Source: Bacillota bacterium (lineage in GTDB: Bacteria; Bacillota; JADQBR01). From it: DNA of 46,983 bases. A program made the position numbers and the translations under genes. A model generated the notes under the pieces. It was given only the letters and a program-made list of their open reading frames with translations, ran no database searches and had not been told where the DNA came from. The stretch lies in assembly GCA_016278515.1 (NCBI GenBank), contig JADQBR010000061.1:1-46983 (forward strand), written 5' to 3'. The stretch's first letter is position 1; every line of letters begins with the position of its first letter. Of this stretch, positions 26,990-29,450 are shown piece by piece.

Positions 26990-27742
26990 GTGAGTGTAAA
27001 AGTTGTAAGAAAAGTGAGGAATAGTACGAGTTCACTGTTTCTCCAAGGCAGTTTGTTTTTTTTGCTTTTATTGGTAGCAATTTTTTTCTTTATTAATTCT
27101 TCGTTTTTTAGTATCAGGGAAATAACTATTAATGGTACCAAAGAACTGCAAAAAGCAACTGTTTTAGATTTGGCAGGTGTCTCTGTGGGCGAAAACTTAA
27201 TAAAACTGGATATTGGTCAAATAAAAGCCCAAGTAGAATTAAGTTCTATGGTAGAGTTTATCACAGTTGAGAGAAAACTTCCCGACCAACTTATAATTAA
27301 TATCCGGGAACGCCAAGGAGCTGCCTTAGTAAGTTATCGCGACGGTTTTATTTTGTTAGATGAACAAGGTTATTACATACGGTTAGTCAATCGTTTAACT
27401 GATTCTAATTACCCTTTGATTAACGGGGCGCAGTTGCCAATAGATTTAGTTCCTGGCACGAAAGTAGAAGGAAAAGGTTTGAAGGAAGCCCTGAACATTG
27501 TATCTCATGTTCCCCCGGGAAAACTACTGACATTTACTGAAATACACGTTAAACCCGATAACAATTTAGAACTGTACACAGAAGAAGGAATAAGAGTTTT
27601 GGTAGGCGATAGCAGCAATATTGGGCGTAAGCTCCAATGGTTTTTTGAAATATACCGTCAGTTGTTAAAAGGAACGAACAAGGATAATATTGAATATGTT
27701 GATTTAAGTTTTGACGGGCCGCCAATAGTTAAATACCGTTAA
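26990..27742 (+). CDS. divIB: Cell division protein DivIB/FtsQ
   Basis: 250 residues: short basic cytoplasmic N-terminus, one membrane segment (about 19-39), then an outside POTRA domain beginning FFSIREITINGTKELQKATVLDLAGV and a DivIB/FtsQ beta domain (ERKLPDQLIINIRERQGAALV, FILLDEQGYYI). Bitopic divisome protein that stabilises the FtsL/DivIC complex. GTG start after GGCGGAGGGG. A terminator and a structured element separate it from ftsA, which in most relatives follows closely. Confidence 0.92.
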   Translation: MSVKVVRKVRNSTSSLFLQGSLFFLLLLVAIFFFINSSFFSIREITINGTKELQKATVLDLAGVSVGENLIKLDIGQIKAQVELSSMVEFITVERKLPDQLIINIRERQGAALVSYRDGFILLDEQGYYIRLVNRLTDSNYPLINGAQLPIDLVPGTKVEGKGLKEALNIVSHVPPGKLLTFTEIHVKPDNNLELYTEEGIRVLVGDSSNIGRKLQWFFEIYRQLLKGTNKDNIEYVDLSFDGPPIVKYR

Positions 27743-27749
27743 ATTATCT

Positions 27750-27773
27750 AAACACCTGTTGCTGGGTGTTTTT
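27750..27773 (+). terminator. Rho-independent terminator after divIB
   Basis: AAACACC (27750-27756) pairs with GGTGTTT (27765-27771), followed by T; the loop is 8 bases. Confidence 0.75.
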
Positions 27774-27775
27774 AA

Positions 27776-28065
27776 TGTATAGGAAATTATGGGTTGTGGA
27801 TAATTTTCTATACATGGGGGTTGTTAAGGGGGCAAGGCCCCCTTATGTTAATTAAGGAGGGTCTACCCGCAAGGGGCATGCCAAAACTCTAGAGCAACAA
27901 ATTGCTAAGAGTTTTGCTAACAGCGAAGCGACCTAGGGAACCAGGGTTCCCTCTGGGTAAGGATATAGAAGACTTGGCAACTTGTTGCCTTAGTCGCACT
28001 TAATGCCCCTTGGGTGCAAAAGCATTACCTATTAATGCCGAAAGGCATGAAATGCTTTTGTTTTT
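27776..28065 (+). ncRNA. Structured repeat element, probable ncRNA or non-autonomous mobile element
   Basis: This 290-base stretch has no credible gene but is dense with nested hairpins: 27776-27790/27800-27814 (15 pairs, one G-U); 27825-27832/27838-27845 (8); 27882-27890/27908-27916 (9) enclosing 27893-27897/27902-27906; 27971-27974/27992-27995 enclosing 27976-27980/27985-27989; and a terminal 28017-28026/28051-28060 stem (10) enclosing 28035-28039/28044-28048 with a GAAA tetraloop, then TTTTT. The last 70 bases recur at 1-68 with structure-preserving changes. Different hairpins at the two ends resemble IS200/IS605-type elements and their omega-RNA or HEARO derivatives, but I cannot confirm a family. 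Confidence 0.6.
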
Positions 28066-28214
28066 AGTCAATATGTGCTAAAAAAAGAGGAAAAAAACGA
28101 TTTTTAAAAAGAGGGAAAACTAAAAGTTTTGTTGAAATGACCCTGTATAGAGGTAGGAATCATTAAATTTTTATGTACGACGCAATCAACCAGTATCACT
28201 GGAGGTGCAGTTTT

Positions 28215-29450
28215 TTGACCTTGGGTAATGTCATTGTTGGTCTAGATATAGGAACATCTAAAGTTGTCGCAACAGTCGCGGAAGTTAACGAATATGGGCA
28301 AATCAATATTATTGGTATGGGTCGGACGGCATCTACAGGCTTGAAAAAAGGGTTAATAGTAGATATTGATCGAACAGTAAAAGGAATTAAAGAAGCCGTG
28401 GAAGCGGCTGAGCGCATGAGCGGTGTTGAGATTTCCGGCGTTACTGTCGGGATAGGAGGCCAACACATAAGCTCTTTAAAAAGTAGAGGGGTTGTAGGAA
28501 TTTCTAATGCCGAAAAAGAAGTAACCCCCAATGATGTTCAACGCGTGCTGCAAGCTTCTAAAGTAGTTACTTTGCCTCCGGACAGAAGGATTATTCACTG
28601 CTTACCTAGACAATATTTTATGGATGGCAACGATGGCATTATAGACCCGGTGGGTATGTCCGGCGAACGTCTTGAAGTAGAAACCATAATAGTTACAGGG
28701 TTGGCTACTGCCATTCAAAACATTATAAAAAGCGTGGCATTGGCCGATCTCCAGGTAGTAGAACTTGTGCTAAACCCATTGGCATCCGCTAACGCGGTAT
28801 TGCAGCCTGCAGAAAAAGACTTGGGGTGTGTATTAGTTGATATTGGCGGCGGGACCACGGAGATTACTATTTTTGATGAAGGCAGTTTATGGTGGACGGG
28901 TATAGTGCCAATTGGTGGTGATCACATTACCAGCGATTTAGCTATAGGGCTTCGTGCCCCCATCGATTTGGCTGAAAAAGTAAAGATGGAACACGGGTGT
29001 GTTTTAACGGAATTAGTACCTGATGACGAGTATATATCAGTGGTTGGGGTGGATAAACAAGAAGTCAAGCAAGTTTCCAAAAAATTTGTGTCCTCAATCA
29101 TTAAGCCTAGGATACAGGAAATACTTGGCATGGTTAAAGATCAGGTCGCTAGGTCAAATTACGCTGGAATGTTGCCAGGCGGCATTATCATTAGCGGCGG
29201 CGTCGCAGGGTTAGAGGGTTTGTCACAATTGGCGTCGCAGGAGTTAGGTCTACCTGTTCGAATTGGACGGCCTGACGGGGTAGGCGGACTGTTTGATATG
29301 GCAGAAGACCCAAGTTATGCAACTTCAATTGGCTTACTTATTCACGGCAGTAATCAATTGGCTTATCAGGAAACTGCTGCGGATGGCCAAGCGCTGAGTA
29401 GGGTTTGGGGAAAAATATCCGGGTGGCTAAAAGATTTTTTAGGATTATAA
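28215..29450 (+). CDS. ftsA: Cell division protein FtsA
   Basis: 411 residues from TTG 28215, seven bases after GGAGGTG (28201-28207); the longer frame from ATG 28173 runs through that site. Actin-fold: VIVGLDIGTSKVVATVAEV (phosphate 1), CVLVDIGGGTTEITIF (phosphate 2), PGGIIISGGVAGLEGL (adenosine motif), and a C-terminal amphipathic helix (VWGKISGWLKDFLGL) for membrane binding. Tethers FtsZ filaments to the membrane. Confidence 0.96.
   Translation: MTLGNVIVGLDIGTSKVVATVAEVNEYGQINIIGMGRTASTGLKKGLIVDIDRTVKGIKEAVEAAERMSGVEISGVTVGIGGQHISSLKSRGVVGISNAEKEVTPNDVQRVLQASKVVTLPPDRRIIHCLPRQYFMDGNDGIIDPVGMSGERLEVETIIVTGLATAIQNIIKSVALADLQVVELVLNPLASANAVLQPAEKDLGCVLVDIGGGTTEITIFDEGSLWWTGIVPIGGDHITSDLAIGLRAPIDLAEKVKMEHGCVLTELVPDDEYISVVGVDKQEVKQVSKKFVSSIIKPRIQEILGMVKDQVARSNYAGMLPGGIIISGGVAGLEGLSQLASQELGLPVRIGRPDGVGGLFDMAEDPSYATSIGLLIHGSNQLAYQETAADGQALSRVWGKISGWLKDFLGL

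Follow-up and report, generated by a model that had tools for sequence, protein, structure and literature searches.

In the window, as we call the whole stretch of 46,983 nucleotides analysed here, a non-coding element lies between divIB and ftsA, within a gene cluster composed of a Mur-ligase gene, murB, a gene of the EPSP-synthase family (murA-like), divIB, ftsA and, next after ftsA, ftsZ (assigned by Pfam). The borders of the element were set at the positions at which its copies in its own genome (G000) and in the complete relative G001 cease to align. The earlier note had described a multi-hairpin insert at 27776-28065; all of the hairpin features that it listed are present, and the borders fall at 27775-28063 instead. 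The features discussed below are the following.

Positions 1 to about 69, plus strand: right-end fragment of another copy of the element, cut by the contig start and ending in GTTC.
Positions 26990 to 27742, plus strand: divIB (ftsQ), the upstream neighbour, whose terminator is the target (Pfam FtsQ_DivIB_C and POTRA_1).
Positions 27750 to 27773, plus strand: intrinsic terminator of divIB, read directly as an AAACACC..GGTGTTT stem-loop with a T-tract, the insertion target.
Positions 27775 to 28063, plus strand: whole element in its long form, 289 nt from left to right end, non-coding, with the limits given by the alignment of copies in G000 and G001.
Positions 27775 to 27815, plus strand: left-end hairpin with a stem of 15-16 bp and a 9-nt loop, based on the fold, covariation and a tip match to IS91-family elements of G006 and G052.
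Positions 27825 to 27845, plus strand: second hairpin, TAAGGGGGCAAGGCCCCCTTA, found in most related families.
Positions 27864 to 27919, plus strand: internal module 1, a palindromic unit of 56-57 nt, missing in short-form copies.
Positions 27920 to 27961, plus strand: conserved core hairpin, ACAGCGAAGCGACCTAGGGAACC..GGTAAG, the loop of which takes a third module in the G001 and PH28_bin88 copies.
Positions 27962 to 28016, plus strand: internal module 2, 55 nt, present or absent independently and pairing with module 1 in the predicted fold.
Positions 28017 to 28063, plus strand: right-end hairpin, CAAAAGCATT..AATGCTTTTG, with an inner GAAA-capped stem and the tip GTTT, which is GTTC in most copies.
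Positions 28173 to 29450, plus strand: ftsA, the downstream neighbour (Pfam FtsA and SHS2_FTSA).

Folded as RNA, the element had an energy of -114.1 kcal/mol compared with -83.2 +/- 5.4 in dinucleotide shuffles (z -5.7), and none of the 200 shuffles folded as well; folded as DNA, it gave a z of -8.3. The left tip reads ATGTATAGGAAATTATG..TGTGGATAA, its stem is A+T-rich, and TTGTGGATAA lies within the loop and 3' arm of the left-end hairpin. At window 27794-27803, and at the homologous positions, this stretch reads as the DnaA-box consensus TTATCCACA in reverse complement. At the other end, the right hairpin proper spans 28017-28060 and is followed by GTTTTT. The two end hairpins differ from each other, classical terminal inverted repeats are absent, and the copies bear out that the insert is discrete and multi-copy, as had been proposed from the window. 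Like MITEs in general, the element is small, gene-less, present in many copies and precisely inserted. A sequence search of the PDB returned no relative. Scanning the window against Rfam gave no family at the gathering score; up to an E of 5 there were only sub-threshold matches, such as Hairpin ribozyme and Clostridiales-2, with HEARO and other omega-RNAs absent, and scans of the element itself gave no match to a group II intron, be it domain V/VI or another part. The checks for HEARO, omega-RNAs and group II intron fragments that the earlier note had called for thus came back empty.

At least 16 left ends of the element are spread over many contigs of its own genome, one copy (G000:C68) being 93% identical to that in the window. 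About 18 contig ends of this genome fall within element copies, as is to be expected since repeats break short-read assembly. A second copy within the window had also been implied; related sequence does lie at its start, as a right-end fragment only. In G001 about 19 copies were found. The short form measures about 178 nt, and longer forms carry up to three extra internal modules, namely module 1 (27864-27919), module 2 (27962-28016) and the loop insert of the copies in G001 and Clostridiales bacterium PH28_bin88, each gained or lost independently of the others. The idea that modules 1 and 2 co-vary as one stem was rejected, as some copies have module 2 and lack module 1. Module 1 was also seen in a different host repeat, where one to three units stand in tandem between TTGAATTTGGGG and TAACGGTTCTCAAGTTGAATT (G000 C95, C59, C33, C166, C73 and C83; L021-L030, L078, L079), and looks like a small palindromic unit housed in two kinds of repeat. 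On G001 C1 plus-strand copies are found only between about 1.06 and 2.40 Mb and minus-strand copies in the remainder, a split perhaps due to the way in which genes are oriented on the replication arms.

Using a pattern built on the left hairpin, we found families with the same plan and a different sequence in PH28_bin88, a Thermincola ferriacetica MAG (G013), Peptococcaceae bacterium BRH_c4b and others. When 17 copies from several families were aligned, the left hairpin showed 24 double-change cells over 8 pairs, compared with 6.1 in shuffles. In some rows the search pattern had preset the inner nine pairs, which therefore carry little weight; the outer six were free of this constraint, and it is this outer stem that changes on both sides together, the signal being abolished when the partner is slid. 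The dozens of copies and the covarying left stem answer the objection, raised beforehand, that the element might have neither further copies nor a conserved structure.

The copies share a characteristic landing site. Stem-loops ending no more than 12 nt from the left junction were scored, with the junction as the counting unit, given that the elements are related by descent and their flanks mostly independent. Such a stem-loop was found at 63 of 97 left junctions, compared with 9.1% of control positions 10-60 nt downstream of long ORFs (Fisher p about 8e-37) and 16% of T-rich control positions downstream of ORFs; about a third of the left junctions have none by the same scoring. One pattern match, L149 (ISd), was judged to be due to chance and was excluded from the final statistic. 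The right flanks carried a stem-loop in 3 of 33 cases, and in 60 of 71 left flanks four or more of the last eight bases are T. At the window locus the stem of the divIB terminator was scored as ending 3 nt upstream of the left junction. We found no report of such a landing rule for the IS91 family in the open-access literature.

Orthologous sites show what an insertion does to its target. Three insertions of the Thermincola sister family (G013) have uninterrupted counterparts in G097 or G130, and with the element taken as TTATTAAGG...TTTTCTTG the flanks join inside the T-tract with neither loss nor duplication, point differences between the species being allowed for. The joins are CT/TT, TT/TA and TA/TT, with the border ambiguous by one or two T. 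The empty sites read CTCTTTAGG, GTTTTATTT and TTTATTTATC, and the tetranucleotide GTTC/CTTG (GAAC/CAAG) does not occur in them. CTTG was therefore rejected as a target sequence, since it arrives with the element. Inverted repeats and target site duplication, both wanting in IS91, are also missing here, the latter as judged on the Thermincola sister family.

A possible source of mobility was found at the left tip. In other Firmicutes the tip ATGTTTAGGAAATTATG..TGTGGATAA belongs to IS91-family elements with the transposase gene directly downstream. At three different sites in G006, each behind a terminator, the same left tip leads directly into an ORF with an IS91-type zinc-binding start; there and in G052 it reads ATGTtTAGGAAATTATG..TGTGGATAA, and the IS91-family ORF begins about 50 nt further in. 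The match between the element and the G006 tip is a short one, 90% over 30 nt (E 2e-4). With the G006 protein as query, elements were found in G052, G342, G117, G146, G154, G168 and G257, and a relic in G400. Their left tips are of several types, namely ATGTTTAGGAAATTATGC (G006, G052), TTGCTTAGGAAAGTATA (G342, G257), TTGCCTAGGAAATTATA (G117), TCAGAAAGTATA (G146, G154, G400) and GATAAGAAAGTATA (G168), with TGTGGATAA retained in some of them (G006, G052, G257). In G257, G342, G146, G154 and G400, too, the IS91-family ORF lies about 50 nt inside the tip. Three full-length transposases pass Pfam Y2_Tnp and Zn_Tnp_IS91 (PF04986, PF14319), and the two tested with NF033538 transpos_IS91 scored 308 and 316 bits against a cut-off of 125. 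They have the two tyrosines in the motif YIGRY, together with PHVH (L168, L169) or PHIQ (L167). The tip-matched transposases form a separate clade (support 1.000), with 24-28% identity to the other IS91 transposases of these genomes. In L167, L168, L169, L170, L173 and L198 the transposase gene is followed by another ORF, about 85 codons long and containing two cysteine pairs. Transposase-bearing copies, too, lie behind terminators: all 14 of their junctions among those scored above had a stem-loop, and two more were read by eye.

The left tip is thus common to the element and an autonomous IS91-family element; the likeness of the right tips, a hairpin and GTTC, is weaker. The G006 C30 relic (L098) had suggested an assignment of the right end, which was abandoned because the stretch in question is coding. 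Beyond the tips nothing evident is common to the element and the autonomous elements, and the element is therefore not a simple deletion derivative of an autonomous IS91. Nor was a transposase of the tip-matched clade found in G000 or G001. The only IS91 genes seen in these two genomes were rejected as partners, being of another subgroup, broken and devoid of the tip motif. A transposase and a small element do occur together in G146, where an IS91 of the tip-matched clade is accompanied by a 96-bp hairpin element in at least 43 copies (L224-L253). The two share TATCAGAAAGTATA at the left (14 nt) and, at the right, a hairpin followed by GTTTTCTT; their tips differ outside the shared parts, so that this IS91 is not the exact parent. 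Several of the 96-bp copies follow one another head to tail at a spacing of 3-4 nt, a layout that insertion behind the element's own right hairpin would produce, and the G146 IS91 itself sits behind a 96-bp copy.

It could be argued that the element is moved by some other transposase and that its left-tip likeness to IS91 is coincidence or convergence. The searches of G000 and G001 gave no partner gene, and TGTGGATAA, as the reverse complement of the DnaA-box consensus, could recur for other reasons. Yet ATGTnTAGGAAATTATG and the placement behind terminators are also common to both, and in G146 similar tips come together in a single genome, which makes this explanation improbable. In our view the stretch probably belongs to a rolling-circle transposon akin to a distinct IS91 subgroup, as a non-autonomous, MITE-like copy that a Y2/HUH transposase would have mobilised in trans into a terminator T-tract. 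The assignment to IS91 is read from the sequences, the tip, context and architecture jointly pointing to it.

Classical IS91 elements have a G+C-rich left stem-loop and use GTTC/CTTG as a target. Here the left stem is A+T-rich, the insertion is into a terminator T-tract and the tetranucleotide is on the element and not on the target; the tip-matched elements further differ by the small cysteine-pair ORF after the transposase. As the empty sites lack the tetranucleotide, what we claim is a variant and not a classical member of the family. The likeness to IS91, IS801 and ISCR lies in the family of the tip-matched transposase and in the lack of inverted repeats and target duplication, and the G+C-rich left stem may be dispensable (PMC3189936). 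The tetranucleotides at the left end of IS801 and in its target are GAAC, GGAC and CAAG, and the right tips found here (GTTC, CTTG, GTCC) are the reverse complements of these target tetranucleotides (PMC3189936); since the arrangement differs, with the left end and target concerned in IS801 and the right tip here, this is not counted as proof. Small IS801 derivatives are mobilised as well, the IS801 transposase acting in trans.

The earlier note had likened the stretch to IS200/IS605 units and to the omega-RNA/HEARO RNAs. As a non-autonomous element of HUH Y1 enzymes (IS200/IS605 or RAYT/REP-like), with or without a guide RNA, it would have the asymmetric end hairpins without inverted repeats, the intergenic copies and, as in the sister family, the lack of target duplication; IS200/IS605 MITEs and REP/RAYT are likewise hairpin-ended, intergenic and served by HUH enzymes. 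However, the element's hairpins are flush with both ends, no HEARO or omega-RNA was matched in Rfam, and no IscB, IsrB, TnpB or TnpA-Y1 gene was noticed on reading the copy loci, so that neither a matching transposase nor a guide RNA was found at the element. Matching left tips instead run, repeatedly, straight into genes for IS91-family transposases of the Y2 type, and we regard a Y1 origin as highly improbable.

Group IIC introns are inserted just behind terminator stem-loops (PMC7923331), and this shared target preference could suggest a retroelement-type insertion, a relic with the target choice of such introns. In one G001 copy (L054, G001:C1:277600-278700) the left part is replaced by sequence reading like a group II intron 3' end (domains V/VI), both kinds of element favouring terminators. 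The intron-like piece abuts this left-truncated copy only, however, and group IIC introns are ribozyme retroelements, whereas the element has neither such an RNA nor a reverse transcriptase. An intron-like catalytic core was found in no form, Rfam scans of the element matched no group II intron, and the tips match IS91-family DNA transposons, leaving this origin very little probability. That the element is a host-beneficial structured RNA (a 3'-UTR or ftsA leader element) that happens to be repeated is just as hard to credit, in spite of the strong RNA fold, the compensatory changes in conserved hairpins and the constant sense orientation behind terminators, as copies lie behind unrelated genes and differ by whole modules, sister species lack the sister family's insertions at the orthologous sites, and DNA hairpins required for transposition account for the covariation equally well.

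On the best explanation, rolling-circle transposition, the hairpins would be recognition sites in single-stranded DNA. Transposition of IS91 runs from the right end (ori91) to the left (ter91), via single-stranded DNA and with no target duplication (PMC5714925, PMC3189936). By analogy, we propose the right-end hairpin as the ori-side and the left-end hairpin as the ter-side recognition structure, presumably the origin and the terminus. A Y2/HUH transposase acting in trans would cut one of the two strands at the right-end hairpin, from where a single strand would be peeled off as far as the left-end hairpin, and this strand would be inserted in the T-tract behind an intrinsic terminator with no target duplication. 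The right end, a hairpin with a T-run and GTTC or CTTG, resembles a terminator, and a likely reason for the choice of target is that terminators mimic the element's own cleavage site. The copies would then lie in sense orientation just downstream of the terminator's gene because the terminator sets the strand. We think it rather likely that the whole IS91-type clade, together with its gene-less followers, homes to intrinsic terminators because these, with their hairpin and T-tract, mimic the origin hairpin of the transposon itself. DNA transposons would thus find in terminators the safe harbour that group IIC introns have there.

Eukaryotic non-autonomous Helitrons are also gene-less and amplified in trans by a rolling-circle transposase, with a terminal hairpin that acts in transposition (PMC4778049); they differ in inserting between A and T and in having the hairpin near one end only. 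The element would be a bacterial counterpart to them. It would also account for one type of structured repeat between genes, liable to be taken for non-coding RNA and a cause of breaks in draft assemblies. Resistance and virulence genes are spread by IS91-type elements, whose choice of target has, to our knowledge, been described in terms of four-base motifs only. A clade of such elements that apparently reads a DNA structure, the terminator, would provide a testable model of how rolling-circle transposases choose their sites.
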